A stretch of 64,000 bases of DNA from Phycisphaeraceae bacterium (GTDB lineage: Bacteria; Planctomycetota; Phycisphaerae; Phycisphaerales; UBA1924). A program made the translations under genes and the position numbers. The notes beneath the pieces were generated by a model, which worked only from the letters and a program-made list of their open reading frames with translations, was not told the origin of the DNA and searched no databases. How positions within the stretch are numbered: the stretch's first letter is position 1; each line of letters starts with the position of its first letter. Location of the stretch: contig JAHBXB010000003.1 of the NCBI GenBank assembly GCA_019636655.1, positions 186,001-250,000 on the forward strand, read 5' to 3'. Positions 51,575 through 58,247 of the stretch are shown one piece after another.

Positions 51575-51759
51575 AACCGATCACTATCAGATCGGCTTGC
51601 CCCGGCCCGTGTGTTCACCAGCCACGCCCCCCGCAGGCCCGAATCTTTCCGGCTCCTGGGAACTCTCGGTCAATCGTGGTAGTCTGTAGCGTCCTCATGG
51701 ACCGTCTCTGTGGCGGTCGGTTCGGTTCACAGTCCCTCGTGGGAAGGAGAGACCTGCAC

Positions 51760-54700
51760 ATGAAGCTCCTGGTTGCCGCATTCCTCGCGGCCGTTGTGAC
51801 TACGTCGATTTCGCTCGCCGCAGCCACGAATACGGCAACACAGCCCACACCGATCCAGTTCCGAACTGGCCCGGCAGTCCTCTCCCCTCTGGCCGATGGA
51901 CCCGGCCGCACCGCCCCGCTCGCGGCGATCGCCGGCAAAAACGGTGGGCACGCGGTCGTGCAGTTCTCGGGCCCGGTTTCGCTGGCCGACCGCGGCGTCA
52001 TGGAGGCAGCCGGCCTCCGCCTGCAGAATCCCCTGGGCTCCAATGCCTTCTTTGCCTCCGTCTCCAAACCCGACATCAAGTCGTTGGACCAGGTGGCCTC
52101 GCTCATCGCAGTTTCCGCCATTCGCCCCGAGTGGAAGCTGCACCCCTTCCTCGCCGACATGGCCCCCCCCGCCTACACCGTCGTGGCCGGCAAGGACCAA
52201 GACGCTATCGTCGCCGTGAACGTCATGTTCCACGCCGACGACGCGATGGGCCTCACCGGCATCCGGATGCTCCAGAAGTACAAGGCGACAGTCATCGGCG
52301 AACTGCGCAGCCTCCCGGTAATGGTCGCCGAAATGCCCCTGGCCAATATCCTCGCACTCGCCGGCGAGGACTCGGTCATGTGGATTGAGTCCCCCTACCC
52401 GGCAATGTCCGTCACCTCCGTCGCCACGCACATCGGTGCCGTTACCGAAGCCTCCAAGGCTCTCGCGGCCGCCGCAGTGGCCAACGACTCCAACCGCGCC
52501 CGCGTCGGCGCCGACACACTGAACGGCCCCGCCTACTCGCTCGACGGCGCCGGCATCCGCCCGTTCGTCTACGACGCCGGCTCCGCCCGCCTCACCCACC
52601 AGACCTTTAGTTCTACCGGTGGCGGTGGGCAGCGCATTATCAGTGTTGATGGAGCCTCGGTCTCATCCCACTCGACCCACGTCGCGGGTACGGTCGCCGG
52701 CAACGGCGCTGGAGAAGGCGGCAACATCCACCGTGGAATGGCCCCGGCGGCCTTTATTCTCTCGGGCGCCCTGAACACCGGCGTTGGCACCGGCACGTAT
52801 TTCCTCTACGACCGCGTCTGCGACCTCGAGGCCGACTACACCCTCGCCTTCGCCGCTCCGAACAGCGCTGATATCGCCAACAACTCCATCGGCACCAACA
52901 CCGAGACCAACGGCTTCCCCTGCTCCCTCCAGGGCGACTACGGCGTCACCGACGCCCTCCTTGACTCCCTGGTCCGCGGCAGCCTCGGACGACCCATCCG
53001 CGTCGTCTGGGCCAACGGCAACGAGCGCCAGGGCAATCGCTGCGACGTCGAAGGCTTCGGCGATTACTTCTCCACCGCCCCGCCAGCGACCGCCAAGAAC
53101 CACATCACCGTCGGCGCGCTCAACTCCAACAACGACTCCATGACCACCTTCTCCTCCTGGGGCCCCACCGACGACGGCCGCCTCAAGCCCGACATCTCCG
53201 CCCCCGGCTGCCAGTCCGACGGCGACAACACGGTCACCAGTTCAACGAGCGCCAGCGACACGTCCTACGGCGGGTCTTGCGGCACCTCGATGGCCTGCCC
53301 GACCGTGACCGGCGTGAGCACCCTCCTCCTCCAGCAGTTCCGCCGCACCTTCCCCGGTGCCGACGACCCGCGGAACTCCACGCTCAAGCTCTGGCTCACC
53401 CACACCGCCCTTGACCTGCTGACCCCCGGCCCCGACTACCAGACCGGCTACGGGTCCATGCGCGGCATCCCCGCTGCGGACTTCGTCATTTCCGGCGCCT
53501 ACCTCGAGGCCCAGATCAACCAGGGCGAGACCTTCCAGCGGACCATCGAGGTCGCCGGCGGCCAGCCCCTGAAGATCAGCCTCGCGTGGGACGACGCGCC
53601 TGGCACCCCGAACACCACCGGTGCTTCGACCCTGGTGAACGACCTCGACCTCCGCCTCATCGCCCCGAACGATGCCGTCTTCTACCCCTGGACCCTCGAT
53701 CCGGCCAACCCCAGCGCGGCCGCCGTTCGCACGACCCCGAACCGCAGGGACAACATCGAGCAGGTTCTCGTCGACAACCCGATGCCCGGCACCTGGCGGG
53801 TCGAGGTTATCGGTTTCAACGTCCCCCAGGGCGCCCAGCCGTTCTCTCTTGCCGGCGTCCCCGGTTCGTACAGCGGGCTCTCTCTGAGCCTTGTCACCCA
53901 GATCCCCACCCTCATACTCCCCGGATCTCCTCTGAGCGTGGATGTGGACGTCCTCGCGATCAACCAGTCGCTTGTTCCCGGCTCTGTGAAGGTGTATACC
54001 CGTACCAGCACGAGTGATCCCTTCACATCCGCGCCGATGTCGCTGGTCACCGGCAACCGTTACCGAGCCAATCTCACCGCACCCCTGTGCGGATCCATCC
54101 TGCAGGTGTACTTCGCCGCCGAGGGCGACGCCTCGGGCGCCATTACGCTCCCCAACACCGCCCCCGCAAGCCTCTTCGTCGCCAACGTCGGCGAGACCAA
54201 CGTTGCCTTCGCCGACAACTTCGAGACCGATCAGGGCTGGACCGTCGCCAACACCCCGATCGCGGGCGGTACCTTCGCCGGCGCGTGGGAGCGAGGCGTT
54301 CCGATCACACCGGCCGCCACCGGAGCCCCCAGCGTCGACGGCGACGGTTCCGGTTCCTGCTACGTCACCGCGAACAACTCGGTCAGCCCCGACGTCGACT
54401 GGGGCTTCACCGCCCTCACGTCGCCGCAGATCAACGCCCCGAACGGGCCGCTCTCGGTCTCGTACAAGCGGTGGTTCCACCGCACCTCCAGCACCGCCGG
54501 CGGCGACGTTCTCCGCGTTGAGTACTCCCTGAACAACGGAGCCACCTGGACCGACATCGAGGTCTTTGGTTCCGCCTCAGGCACTATCACCGGGTCATGG
54601 ATTTCCCAGGTTGCCACCATCCCCGTCGGCAGTTCTCAACTCCGCCTCCGTTTCACCGCGAACGACAACGCCACCAACTCCACCTCCGTTGAGGCCGCGG

Positions 54701-54936
54701 TGGATGCGGTCATGGTCACATCGATCGCCTGCACCAACCCGCAGACCTGCATCGCCGACTGGGATCACGACACCTTCATCACCCCCAGCGATGTCGCCGC
54801 GTTTATCAACCAGTGGTCGCTTGACCTGACCAACGGCACCCTCCTGGCCGACGTCGATCAGAGCGGCACCGTGGACCCCTCGGACATCGCGACCTTCATC
54901 CAAGCCTGGCTCGCGGCGGTTGCCAACGGCTGCTGA
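51760..54936 (+). CDS. Subtilisin-family (S8) secreted protease with dockerin-like module
   Basis: 1058 residues: signal peptide, I9-like propeptide region, then the S8 catalytic triad in family order: Asp in FVYDAGSAR (about 270), His in SSHSTHVAGT (about 309) and Ser in GGSCGTSMACPT (about 508). A jelly-roll P-like domain follows (LVNDLDLRLIAP...GTWRVEVIGFN), more beta-sandwich material, and the C-terminal Cys-bounded double calcium-loop module (CIADWDHDTFITPSDVAAF; DVDQSGTVDPSDIATF). AAGGAG lies 10 nt before the ATG. Extracellular or surface-held protein degradation. Confidence 0.92.
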   Translation: MKLLVAAFLAAVVTTSISLAAATNTATQPTPIQFRTGPAVLSPLADGPGRTAPLAAIAGKNGGHAVVQFSGPVSLADRGVMEAAGLRLQNPLGSNAFFASVSKPDIKSLDQVASLIAVSAIRPEWKLHPFLADMAPPAYTVVAGKDQDAIVAVNVMFHADDAMGLTGIRMLQKYKATVIGELRSLPVMVAEMPLANILALAGEDSVMWIESPYPAMSVTSVATHIGAVTEASKALAAAAVANDSNRARVGADTLNGPAYSLDGAGIRPFVYDAGSARLTHQTFSSTGGGGQRIISVDGASVSSHSTHVAGTVAGNGAGEGGNIHRGMAPAAFILSGALNTGVGTGTYFLYDRVCDLEADYTLAFAAPNSADIANNSIGTNTETNGFPCSLQGDYGVTDALLDSLVRGSLGRPIRVVWANGNERQGNRCDVEGFGDYFSTAPPATAKNHITVGALNSNNDSMTTFSSWGPTDDGRLKPDISAPGCQSDGDNTVTSSTSASDTSYGGSCGTSMACPTVTGVSTLLLQQFRRTFPGADDPRNSTLKLWLTHTALDLLTPGPDYQTGYGSMRGIPAADFVISGAYLEAQINQGETFQRTIEVAGGQPLKISLAWDDAPGTPNTTGASTLVNDLDLRLIAPNDAVFYPWTLDPANPSAAAVRTTPNRRDNIEQVLVDNPMPGTWRVEVIGFNVPQGAQPFSLAGVPGSYSGLSLSLVTQIPTLILPGSPLSVDVDVLAINQSLVPGSVKVYTRTSTSDPFTSAPMSLVTGNRYRANLTAPLCGSILQVYFAAEGDASGAITLPNTAPASLFVANVGETNVAFADNFETDQGWTVANTPIAGGTFAGAWERGVPITPAATGAPSVDGDGSGSCYVTANNSVSPDVDWGFTALTSPQINAPNGPLSVSYKRWFHRTSSTAGGDVLRVEYSLNNGATWTDIEVFGSASGTITGSWISQVATIPVGSSQLRLRFTANDNATNSTSVEAAVDAVMVTSIACTNPQTCIADWDHDTFITPSDVAAFINQWSLDLTNGTLLADVDQSGTVDPSDIATFIQAWLAAVANGC

Positions 54937-55022
54937 CCCCGGCTCGGGATCATCCACTCGCCGTACTCTTCGGACGGGCCCCGCCACACTCCGTGCGGGG
55001 CCCGTCCCGAGGACGGCCTCCC

Positions 55023-55451
55023 ATGCTGACCTTCAAAGCCGATGGCGGAACATTCTGGTGCAGCGCCGCCGACTGGCTGATGATGGTCCGGCTCGCCAAG
55101 AGCCGCGGCTGGAACCCCTCGGGTATACCCCAGCCCATCGAAGAGGATGGATCGCCCGACTATTCACCTGACGCCTGGAGCTACTCTAAGCCGGGACTGA
55201 CGCTCAAAGTGCCCGATGAGGACGCCCGCGCCTTAGCCGACAGCCTTGAGTCCAGCCTCCCCGATCTTCCCCGGTTTGACGCGCTCGAGGACAAGTCCGT
55301 CAGCCGTCTGGACATGCCGGGCCAGCTCCCTGTCCGCATGATGCGCCCCGGCGCAACCGTCAGCCCCTTCGAGTACTTCAGCGGCATCAACCGCATCGCG
55401 CTCGAACGCTTCATTGCGCTCTGTCGGTCCGGCGGTCTGACCGTTCGGTAG
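55023..55451 (+). CDS. Hypothetical cytoplasmic protein
   Basis: 142 residues from the ATG at 55023, with GAGGA about 9 nt upstream; no signal peptide or membrane helix. Coherent, slightly acidic sequence with Trp-rich start (FWCSAADWLMMVRLAKSRGW) but no recognised domain. The frame reaches 54993 without an extra conserved start. Confidence 0.6.
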   Translation: MLTFKADGGTFWCSAADWLMMVRLAKSRGWNPSGIPQPIEEDGSPDYSPDAWSYSKPGLTLKVPDEDARALADSLESSLPDLPRFDALEDKSVSRLDMPGQLPVRMMRPGATVSPFEYFSGINRIALERFIALCRSGGLTVR

Positions 55452-55540
55452 CCGGCCCCCGCCCGGACTCTCAAAAGCCCGTGGTTTTCGGGCCTCGCGC
55501 AAAAAGGCCGTTTTTTCCGTGCAAACGGCCTGTGACGGCC

Positions 55541-55568
55541 TTGACACTCCCGCTGGAGTAGGTACATT
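55541..55568 (+). promoter_or_regulatory. Sigma-70-type promoter of the GA-rich transcript
   Basis: Exact TTGACA (55541-55546), 16-bp spacer, TACATT (55563-55568). Start of transcription would be near 55575. Confidence 0.6.
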
Positions 55569-55644
55569 GACAATGCCTCAACCGGTCGTTGAGCGCGGCC
55601 TCGTTATCCGACAACCCCGTGCCCCGAAAGGGGAGTAACACGGC

Positions 55645-55738
55645 AGGAGAGAGAGAGGCGGAGAGACGGTCGGAGAACAAGAGAGAGAGGTCCGCAGGAG
55701 AGAGAGAGACTCGGAGCGAGAGAGAGGCGAGAGAGGGC
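55645..55738 (+). repeat. 94-bp GA-rich imperfect repeat tract
   Basis: Runs of GAGAGA interrupted by short non-purine steps (e.g. AGGAGAGAGAGAGGCGGAGA, then AGGAGAGAGAGAGACTCGGA). Strong purine bias on the plus strand, unlike all flanking sequence. Not codon-periodic in any one frame. Confidence 0.85.
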
Positions 55739-55756
55739 ACCCAAATGTCCTCGAAC

Positions 55757-55798
55757 CCCGGCTGCGAACTGACCGGTCGCAGCCGGGATTTTCTTTTT
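55757..55798 (+). terminator. Rho-independent terminator
   Basis: Perfect 11-bp stem (CCCGGCTGCGA at 55757-55767 with TCGCAGCCGGG at 55777-55787), 9-nt loop, then a T-rich tail 55789-55798. Confidence 0.9.
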
Positions 55799-55903
55799 GC
55801 ACCGCGCCATACGATCCTCGGCGCCTTGCACCAACACCCCCGCGGTGGCGTCCATTCGAACTCAGCCGACGCCGAGCCTCGACTCCCCTAAAGAGAGGAT
55901 CTC

Positions 55904-56488
55904 ATGGCACGCACTCCGTCCACCATGCTACCCCTTGGCACCCGCGCTCCGGCGTTCACCCTCCCCAATGCAGGGGAAGACGGGTCGCCGGTCAGCCTCA
56001 ACGACTTCGCGGCCAAGCCTCTGCTGCTCGTCATGTTCATCTGCAACCACTGCCCCTTCGTCAAGCACCTCCGAACCGGCCTCGCCGCGTTCGCGCGAGA
56101 CTACTCCCACAAGGGCCTCGCTATCGTCGCCATCAACTCCAACGACGCCGAGCGGTATCCGGATGACGCCCCCGCCGCCATGCGCACCGAAGCCGCCAAC
56201 TTCGGCTACACCTTCCCCTACCTCTTCGACGAGTCGCAGGCCGTTGCCAAGGCGTACCACGCCGCCTGCACCCCCGACTTCTTCCTCTTCGATTCCTCCC
56301 GTTCCCTTGTCTACCGCGGCCAGTTCGATGAGAGCCGACCGGGCAACGATATCCCGGTCACCGGCCGCGACCTGCGTGCCGCCGTCGATGCGCTCCTCGC
56401 GGGCAACCCGGCGCCAACGGAGCAGCGCCCGAGTATCGGCTGCAACATCAAGTGGAAGGTGGGGAATGAGCCTGTGTACGCCAGATAG
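55904..56488 (+). CDS. Thioredoxin-family/AhpC-TSA-like protein
   Basis: 194 residues, thioredoxin fold: APAFTLPNAGEDG start as in AhpC/TSA proteins, active site FICNHCPFVK (CxxC), AINSNDAERYPDD, cis-Pro region CTPDFFLFD and a C-terminal SIGCNIKWK block. This is the widespread CNHCPF subgroup of redox proteins without a signal peptide, acting in the cytoplasm; the substrate is unknown, with peroxide or disulfide reduction likely. AGAGGA about 6 nt before the ATG. Confidence 0.85.
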   Translation: MARTPSTMLPLGTRAPAFTLPNAGEDGSPVSLNDFAAKPLLLVMFICNHCPFVKHLRTGLAAFARDYSHKGLAIVAINSNDAERYPDDAPAAMRTEAANFGYTFPYLFDESQAVAKAYHAACTPDFFLFDSSRSLVYRGQFDESRPGNDIPVTGRDLRAAVDALLAGNPAPTEQRPSIGCNIKWKVGNEPVYAR

Positions 56489-56580
56489 CGTTCAGCCCAG
56501 GAGAAGAAGAGACTCGGACCACGGATGAAGTCGAAGGGGCTGAGGTCGCGATAGCGACGTGGCGACCTAGAGGGCGTGAT

Positions 56581-56800
56581 GCACTTGCGTTCAAGAGATG
56601 GGCGAGCATGAGGCAGGCTAACACCACGAGGTGGAGCCCGGCCAGGATCGTGGGCAGGCGTTCGTAGTCCTTGGTCAGCCGGCGGAATCATGCCGCCCGT
56701 GCGAAGCTGCGCTCCACGACCCAACGCCTGGGCAGCAGCACGAAGCCGCGTTTGGCCTCCGGCAGCTTCACCACGCTCGGCTCGATGCCGTGCCGAGGCG
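56581..56800 (-). pseudogene. IS5-family transposase C-terminal remnant
   Basis: Translation gives [25 protein letters not shown], an in-frame TGA (56688-56690), then FRRLTKDYERLPTILAGLHL and ACLMLAHLLN, the typical end of IS5-type (IS1182/ISL-like) DDE transposases, including the RRWVVERSF block. The N-terminal two thirds and the terminal inverted repeats are not recognisable, so this is a dead fragment. Confidence 0.85.
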
Positions 56801-57503
56801 TTGTTGAGGAACTCCAACTGTCCGAGCGTATCTCCTTTGTCGCGCTCGAGCCAACTCTGGTCACTCGATGGGAGTGACGTCCGTCGCGGGTCGGCGAGGC
56901 ATTGTGCAGCGGGACGAACCAGCGGCCAATCCTCCTGCTACCGACCCCCCGCAGCCAGGTCGTGTTTGCGATGTTGACGCACTGGCAGAAGTCCGGGAGT
57001 CTCGGACTGATTCCCGTTGGGAGGACCGAGCTCATCACGCATTATGGGGTGGTGTTGCCCACCGGCGAGATCGTGTTCATCAAGGTGACCAAGATACTGC
57101 TGTCGATCATTCGCATGCACGAACCCCGTACTGCTGCATGGATGCGTGAGCAGGTAGAAATGGGTAGCGCGTACGCACAATCGGCAAACGGGATGTAGAA
57201 CTTCCTGAATCTGCACGCGTTGGCGAGACTCGATCAACGCGGGGTGATCGGGCCGAAGCCGCCGTTGACCGGAGCGATGTCCACGGTCATCGCGCAGCCA
57301 ATTGGGCGCGGCATGGCTTTGGATTCGGGCGAGGGCGACTCCGACGCTGACGGTTTTCGGTATTCGTGATCAACAATCCGACGATCGTGGGTCCGAGCCG
57401 ATGCGTCCTGAATGCGTCGCGAAATCGGGTCGACGTGCGGTTGGTGGTGGGACTACCGGACAACTGGTCCGGCGTCAGAATGCGTCCTGACCGCACCGAC
57501 AGC
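56801..57503. other. Intergenic, no convincing gene
   Basis: About 700 bp between the transposase remnant and kdpE. Frames such as 56902-57198 (+) are open but lack domain content and ribosome-binding sites. Probably decayed sequence associated with the insertion. Confidence 0.5.
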
Positions 57504-58247
57504 TCAGCGTGCAACGGCGTCGTTCGGTGGGGTCAGCCGATACCCGATCCCGGGCTCCGTGAGCACGAACTGGGGCTGGGCGGCGCTGGCCTCGAGCTTC
57601 TGGCGGAGTTGGCCGGCGTAGACGCGGAGGTACTGGACATCGCGTGCGTGCGTTGGGCCCCAGACTTCCTTCAGGATCTGTTGATGCGTCAGAACCTTGC
57701 CGGCGTGCTTGATGAGGAACGCCAGCAGCTTGAACTCGGTCGGAGTGAGACGAATCGGTCGAACCCCGTTCTCGTCCGCCACCCTGACCACGCGAGTGTC
57801 GACGTTGACGTGGAGCGTCCGCCCGTCCGCGGTGGCTTCGTACACGGGGGTCGCCGAGCCCGCGGGGCGTGATGCGTGCCGAAGGGCGACGCGGATGCGT
57901 GCGGCGAGTTCGCTCACGCCGAAGGGCTTTGTGAGATAGTCGTCGGCGCCGGCATCGAGTGCGGCGACTTTGTCAGGTTCTTGGCCGCGGGCGGAAAGAA
58001 CGACAATCGGCACCGCCGAATCCGATCGGATGGACCTGGTGACGTCGATCCCATCTCCGTCAGGAAGCCCCAGGTCCAACAGGATGAGATCCGGTCGTTG
58101 GCTGCGGGCCTGCATCAGCCCCTCGTCGGCTGTTCCGGCTTCCTTGACGCGGTATCCCTGGCTTTCCAGGGTGGCGCGGAGGAACCGTCGGATGGGCTCC
58201 TCATCTTCAACCACCAGGATCAGTGGGCCATTGGAGGGCATCGTCAC
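57504..58247 (-). CDS. kdpE: KdpE response regulator
   Basis: 247 residues, OmpR/KdpE family. The receiver has acidic pair VVEDEEP, phospho-acceptor Asp in LILLDLGLPDGDG, Ser/Thr in VLSARG and Lys in LTKPFG. The C-terminal winged helix includes LTPTEFKLLAFLIKHAGKVLTHQQIL and the late YLRVYAGQLRQKLE typical of KdpE. The GTG at 58247 overlaps the kdpD stop (GTGA); an ATG at 58241 is an equally plausible start. Activated by KdpD to switch on kdp transcription under potassium limitation. Confidence 0.95.
   Translation of the reverse strand: MTMPSNGPLILVVEDEEPIRRFLRATLESQGYRVKEAGTADEGLMQARSQRPDLILLDLGLPDGDGIDVTRSIRSDSAVPIVVLSARGQEPDKVAALDAGADDYLTKPFGVSELAARIRVALRHASRPAGSATPVYEATADGRTLHVNVDTRVVRVADENGVRPIRLTPTEFKLLAFLIKHAGKVLTHQQILKEVWGPTHARDVQYLRVYAGQLRQKLEASAAQPQFVLTEPGIGYRLTPPNDAVAR

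Follow-up and report, generated by a model that had tools for sequence, protein, structure and literature searches.

In sponge RNAs of the Csr system, the repeated motif is GGA or ANGGA placed in hairpin loops (PMC7652899). Few small RNAs have been catalogued for Planctomycetota, and in the table of one review the entire PVC group is credited with eight different annotated sRNAs (PMC9029176). The Rhodopirellula-1 motif, one of 104 candidates put forward in 2010, is likewise a candidate structured RNA, listed for Proteobacteria and Planctomycetes; in the part of that paper that names it, no Rfam number stands beside it, so it is not comparable through Rfam with the RNA described here (PMC2864571).

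In the present study, we analysed a stretch of 64,000 nucleotides from a Phycisphaeraceae genome (hereafter the window), of which positions 55541-55798 are best interpreted as a free-standing RNA gene, about 200-230 nt long across its members, and not as a protein-coding sequence or an mRNA leader. We consider it very probable that this is a real, conserved small RNA gene, and we rate it as a new small RNA family, confined to one clade and, by its repeated motif, a variant of the multivalent-RNA kind. An earlier note on this DNA had called the unit a candidate regulatory RNA, a designation that is now well supported, as conservation extends to the promoter, the 3′ fold, the terminator and the position. 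Being conserved, well delimited by computation and marked by one simple repeated motif, this sRNA may provide a handle on post-transcriptional control in planctomycetes without detectable Hfq.

Organisation, distribution and neighbours of the RNA gene

The promoter, of sigma-70 type by its sequence, is returned by the scanner and can be read directly in the window (55541-55568, + strand); it consists of TTGACA (55541-55546) and TACATT (55563-55568), the two boxes named in the earlier note, separated by a spacer of 16 nt. The same architecture was found at 13 of 13 loci (12 strong members and the weaker G031), with TTGACA, a 16-nt spacer and a −10 box of the form TA[CGT][AC]TT; the pattern used to find the loci demanded TTGACA but permitted spacers of 13-20 nt. 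Transcription of the unit is predicted and would be expected to start near 55575, giving a proposed small RNA of about 224 nt with predicted ends (55575-55798, + strand). A purine tract spans about 55645 to 55738. The earlier note had described a 94-nt tract of repeats; the purine tract with its GA runs stands, but TRF detected no tandem array in it, and the tract instead contains six separate (GA)n runs of 6-12 nt (55647-55657, 55661-55666, 55680-55689, 55698-55709, 55718-55726 and 55729-55735, + strand), mostly predicted to be unpaired. The unit closes with an intrinsic terminator (55757-55798, + strand), previously described as near-perfect, in which an 11-bp stem (55757-55767/55777-55787) is perfect and encloses the 9-nt loop ACUGACCGG, followed by a T-rich tail (55789-55798). 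Two features had gone unmentioned, namely a second hairpin, GAGGGC-ACCCAAAU-GUCCUC (55733-55738/55747-55752, + strand), and a possible pairing of two arms across the GA tract. In a scan of 54000-58000, this was the sole promoter-like site by the scanner's rule, one site against a shuffle mean of 0.4, which is not significant alone. Terminator-like sites numbered one against a shuffle mean of 2.5, with a scanner that takes loops of 3-8 nt only and that gave a different, 5-pair hairpin at 55773-55786. The promoter-terminator unit is thus above chance because it is conserved, and not from the scan counts alone.

BLAST of a 271-nt stretch against 61 genomes yielded four clear homologs besides the query. 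Searching 163 genomes of the same family with R1, a covariance model of 86 positions that covers the 3′ part, we identified 12 strong carriers, the query counted, at 54.7-106.2 bits, with the next match at 32.5 bits. A second model built from the 12 strong members (R2, E ≤ 0.001) recovered the same 12 in 400 genomes of the order, together with G031 (33 bits) and weak matches in G178, G083 and G213, and matched only G000, G029 and G213 in 397 genomes of the class, a sample that contained few carriers. Searches over more than 40 genomes used stricter filters and may miss weak members. G031 was kept as a weak thirteenth member because its promoter, spacing and TGACCG loop agree. G213 (33.5 bits), with a terminator after a coding end and no promoter or GA runs by eye, was not counted, and G178 and G083 (30 bits) were also left out of the carrier count. 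A pattern scan of GTDB contigs gave 27 stretches, ten of them true members (R1 82-106 bits) and all ten titled Phycisphaerales, Phycisphaeraceae or Phycisphaerae; the remaining 17 stretches, at no more than 26.3 bits or without an R1 match, were read as chance. Extra copies in the carrier genomes were dismissed as opposite-strand matches on the terminator palindrome or as matches below 30 bits. As far as these searches reach, the small RNA appears confined to part of one Phycisphaerales family. At the gathering score, Rfam 15 gave two tRNAs only for the whole window and no family for this RNA, and a known Rfam family was thereby rejected; a search of 55450-55910 at E up to 5 returned four sub-threshold matches, the best at 16.5 bits. 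No paper on this RNA was found among the matches listed in the open-licence literature.

The lack of a clear gene over about 220 nt, as described previously, agrees with the relatives, in which no conserved frame runs through the tract, and tract length varies between conserved ends in related genomes, as the earlier note had envisaged. A protein-coding tract was rejected on frame-breaking gaps, 13 of 14 gaps in five pairwise alignments of the RNA not being multiples of three. In no member other than G000 is a sense frame stop-free. Stop-free antisense frames occur in 10 of 13 members and say little, because GA/CT repeats hold no stops.

Upstream of the RNA lies an ORF of 152 aa without a Pfam match (54993-55451, + strand), which takes in the gene start at 55023 given previously, and a similar ORF occupies the same position in G085. 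Downstream and outside the RNA, the thioredoxin-family neighbour named in the earlier note is a Redoxin/AhpC-TSA protein by Pfam (55904-56488, + strand), but this neighbour is not constant among relatives. A cis-acting leader or attenuator of the downstream gene would be in keeping with the Redoxin gene directly 3′ of the RNA in G000, G018, G004 and G031, where the next gene begins about 100-150 nt past the terminator, and with the same-strand gene found downstream at most loci. However, although the locus is syntenic, the downstream gene differs, being Redoxin in some members and a sigma-70-like factor in others: a Redoxin gene lies within the stretch read at 6 of 13 loci, and at 8 of 13 a sigma-70-like factor and a VIT/vWA protein are encoded downstream in the same orientation, a pair assigned by Pfam for G005 only and by BLAST cluster for the others, and located about 3.3 kb from the RNA in G108. 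In G029, where a same-strand frame of 485 aa was judged spurious by eye, the downstream neighbour is convergent with the RNA (Peptidase_S51-like, E 1.2e-4, with 22.2 bits where the Pfam cut-off is 23.9); the RNA is not a leader there because this neighbour points toward it, and a same-strand gene is thus not found in all members. Furthermore, Redoxin loci were scanned in 29 of 89 matching genomes, 28 of which were counted, as L127 had too little upstream DNA. The carriers G004 and G018 show the element within 600 nt, whereas in 24 non-carriers the 600 nt upstream of Redoxin contained neither a TTGACA promoter nor a GA run nor a TGACCG loop; the element was also not found within 600 nt at the Redoxin loci of G085 and G184, in both of which the RNA is located elsewhere. 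A leader of the downstream gene is barely credible and was rejected on the convergent G029 neighbour and the variable neighbours. As a separate observation, a sigma-70-like factor is followed by a large VIT/vWA protein downstream in G115, G184, G183, G182, G116, G005 and G085, and this pair is not beside the query RNA.

Conserved 3′ end and variable 5′ domain

The 3′ end was assessed in an alignment of the 12 strong members (A6), G031 being left out of both the alignment and the covariation test. The 3′ hairpin and the terminator comprise 17 pairs, and all 203 cells are standard pairs, compared with 30-44% of cells in slid versions of the pairing. Of the 11 pairs of the terminator stem, five carry compensatory changes affecting both partners, with 100% pairing among the 12 sequences; a mean of 2.0 such changes was obtained in shuffles, and 1 of 500 shuffles reached five. 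Four of five covariation measures were beyond nearly all shuffles, and the measure 'further pair types' was unremarkable (reached by 332 of 500 shuffles). The 3′ hairpin has six pairs, all of them standard in each of the 12 sequences; four are invariant and two vary one-sidedly. The terminator loop UGACCGRUC (DNA TGACCGRTC) was kept in 12 of 12 members, and the T tail is present in 11 of 12 and missing in G005. That the loop is fixed while its stem changes suggests the loop matters beyond termination. In G085 (L063, C77), the promoter, 3′ hairpin and terminator are kept, there is no stable 5′ fold and the number of GA runs is zero; a separate count of 5′ parts found none in G085 and G031. The 5′ domain of G085 is thus either lost or replaced while the promoter and 3′ end persist, which makes this member a natural test of which part of the RNA matters.

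The 5′ end reads GCCUY shortly past the −10 box in 11 of 12 strong members, G004 being the exception. In the window, GCCUC (55575-55579, + strand) is the proposed partner of GAGGC (55724-55728) in a helix termed P0; the P0 segments are nearly invariant and therefore show no covariation, and GAGGC is also present at another spacing in G085, which is without GA runs. A duplex test and fold prediction point to CCGGUC (55582-55587, + strand) as a possible partner of GACUCGG (55708-55714) in a helix termed P1. In the predicted folds, the 5′ arm pairs with the 3′ portion of the tract; the resulting stem is long and interrupted, and the GA runs bulge from its 3′ side. When these folds were moved between genomes by plain alignment at 71-74% identity, pair retention was no better than that of shifted pairings. 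A test of cognate against non-cognate duplexes, which is alignment-free and was run after this transfer, left out G031 and G085. Among seven genus representatives, 3 of 5040 permutations were as good as the cognate P1 duplexes, the mean being −22.7 kcal/mol for the RNAs' own pairs and −16.4 kcal/mol for cross-genus pairs, and 7 of 5040 were as good for the whole arms, which supports the co-evolution of the two arms as pairing partners. This co-evolution points to the RNA rather than to the DNA triplex that the earlier note had also suggested for the purine tract. For the window's own RNA this support is weak: 10 of 20 non-cognate duplexes are at least as stable as its own P1, which is not special, and its MFE fold does not use the P1 pairing. 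Only the RNAs of G115, G116, G184 and G183, four of 11, have a 5′ domain that folds with an energy clearly lower than that of shuffles, no more than 4 of 300 being as good; the fold energy of the window's own 5′ domain was matched by 21 of 300.

GA runs and their possible partners

The window RNA carries six GA runs of at least 6 nt, whereas its shuffles have a mean of 1.5 and a maximum of 4, and none of 200 reaches six. Four to seven such runs are present in 11 of 12 RNAs, for which dinucleotide-shuffle means are 1.0-3.0; the count was reached by none of 200 shuffles in nine of these 11 and by 1 of 200 in the other two, G031 being left out of this test. The 11 GA-bearing RNAs come from seven genera, and the mean unpaired probability of their GA runs is 0.45-0.73. 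The lengths of the runs vary among members, and the runs were kept as runs although the surrounding stems changed sequence.

Across the genome, CTCTCTCTC occurs at 58 places, which without the six in the RNA form 39 distinct GA/CU runs of at least 9 nt. Nine ORFs of at least 80 aa on the GA strand begin 0-11 nt past such a run, and six ORFs on the CU strand begin at the same distance. By eye, six of the nine are credible and three spurious, and the link to GA leaders depends on this split. The six credible ORFs all have exported-protein-like starts and encode a subtilase, three small proteins with PEP-CTERM-like tails, a ScyE-like protein below the cut-off and one protein with no match; one of the PEP-CTERM-like three is over the TIGR02595 cut-off and the others are below it, and one has a C-type lectin domain over its cut-off. 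Among 127 genes called heuristically in the window and 14 neighbourhoods, with crude gene calling and a crude signal-peptide rule, GAGAG leaders were found in 6 of 35 genes with signal-peptide-like starts and in 4 of 92 other genes (Fisher's one-sided p = 0.026), a modest p-value to which two of the six positives contribute from genomes not counted as carriers. In the 12 carriers, GAGAGAG lies 3-13 nt before ATG 586 times, against 173 in the reversed control (3.4-fold), and in 12 non-carrier relatives the figures are 555 and 168 (3.3-fold); both exceed the ATG:GTA ratio in the window, which is 1.7. Since GA leaders are equally enriched without the RNA, the motif does not need the RNA. The window itself holds, at 51676-54936, a subtilase gene (Peptidase_S8; ATG at 51760) with a GAGAGA leader, a signal-peptide-like start and, by eye, a dockerin-like repeat at its end. 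In L138 (about 1440-1650; G000 C1:739.8 kb), a PEP-CTERM-like gene has a leader in which a promoter-like site (TTGCAG/TACATT) is accompanied by two GA runs, the first close to the 5′ end and the second at Shine-Dalgarno distance.

We propose the following scenario for the RNA. The unit would be transcribed, and its arms would come together in a long stem with interruptions, presenting the (GA)n runs as unpaired bulges on the 3′ side, with a small hairpin and then the terminator located 3′ of this stem. Several mRNAs for exported proteins here appear to carry a GA run of the same type immediately before the start codon. With four to seven GA copies per molecule, the RNA may titrate whatever reads the GA motif, the candidate reader being an RNA-binding protein or a CU-rich RNA, and titration would alter the translation or stability of the GA-leader mRNAs. 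We assign a probability of roughly 0.35 to this mechanism, in which the RNA would be a multivalent decoy copying the GA leader motif. The decoy is favoured because some GA-run leaders in the genome precede exported proteins; counting against it, GA leaders are as enriched in relatives without the RNA, and G085 has neither GA runs nor a stable 5′ fold and yet keeps the promoter and 3′ end. A whole titration system, in which the GA leaders of exported surface proteins (PEP-CTERM-like and dockerin-like) would be read by a factor and the RNA rod would be the decoy, in a host in which Hfq was undetected, is doubtful.

The same runs, repeated and mostly unpaired, could alternatively be the seeds of a trans-acting antisense RNA for CU-rich leaders or a CU-rich small RNA, a possible but tentative explanation. 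CU-rich leaders do exist, for example UUCUCUCUCUCUC just past a TTGACA promoter in G029 (C58:248381), in G018 C16 one strand of a stretch located 3′ of an ORF has CUCUCUCUC repeated, and a GA-rich/CU-rich sRNA pair is described for Campylobacter (PMC10470494). Totals of CTCTCTCTC, which include the RNA's own runs, are a little higher in nine carriers (21-63, mean 41) than in seven non-carriers (13-48, mean 28), in favour of antisense pairing, but the overlap of the two ranges counts against it. The pairing with CU-rich leaders suggested in the earlier note received no support from the enrichment of CU runs before ATG: CTCTCTC lies 4-34 nt before ATG 957 times against 408 in the control (2.3-fold) in 12 carriers and 983 times against 363 (2.7-fold) in 12 non-carriers, and genome-wide targeting of CU leaders, read as such enrichment, was rejected. 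Furthermore, the Pfam model of Hfq (PF17209) matched none of 24 genomes, while 5 of 14 control genomes gave a match; an antisense RNA does not, however, always require Hfq. Two loci may be recorded here in their own right. In L158 (1073-1146; G018 C16:25573-25646), three GA runs lie within 75 nt 3′ of an ORF, and the other strand, with CUCUCUCUC repeats and a CUUGGAG/CUCCAAG hairpin, could encode a CU-rich transcript complementary to the GA RNA. In L164 (about 540-640; G029 C58:248381), a TTGACA promoter is followed by the leader UUCUCUCUCUCUCAG and an exported-looking ORF, a possible CU-rich target.

The working part may instead be the terminator loop with the 3′ hairpin, the GA runs being a spacer grown by slippage. 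The loop kept in all 12 sequences over a covarying stem, the retention of the 3′ part without GA runs in G085 and the variable run lengths would all agree with this, but the runs were kept in 11 RNAs of seven genera while neighbouring stems changed, and we consider this explanation unlikely. Competition of the GA runs with mRNAs for the 16S anti-Shine-Dalgarno, also put forward in the earlier note, would draw on the GA runs that stand at Shine-Dalgarno distance in some mRNAs of the genome. However, duplexes of the 11 RNAs with an assumed anti-Shine-Dalgarno tail, and not one read from this genome's 16S, have energies of −13.9 to −14.8, equal to those of dinucleotide shuffles (−13.8 to −15.1). 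A few such sites per RNA would matter only at very high expression, and a ribosome decoy is improbable. A sponge for CsrA of the CsrB/RsmZ type is more improbable still. CsrA is encoded in the genome (two matches), and the 11 GA-bearing members have 4-8 GGA per RNA; against this, GGA is below the dinucleotide-shuffle mean in 12 of 12 RNAs, each RNA has 0-3 ANGGA and no more than two fully open GGA, and G085 has one GGA. The CsrA sponge was rejected on the lack of both GGA enrichment and GGA/ANGGA in unpaired loops, and a link between the presence of the RNA and CsrA was rejected because CsrA is near-universal in the family (162 of 163 genomes) and the RNA is not.

Relation to known systems

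The decoy proposed above, if true, would be a Csr-like circuit on a different motif, probably with a different protein, and it may link a GA-repeat RNA to the exported surface proteins of planctomycetes. The Campylobacter sRNAs CjNC110 and CjNC140 are similar in that the GA-rich region of one interacts with the CU-rich region of the other (PMC10470494). They are set apart by a GA-rich SL1 hairpin region, whereas the RNA described here has multiple GA runs. With CsrB, CsrC, RsmY and RsmZ, the RNA has in common a short, purine-rich and unpaired motif repeated many times, and its genome encodes CsrA. It differs from them in the motif itself, which is (GA)n here and GGA or ANGGA in hairpin loops in the Csr sponges (PMC7652899).
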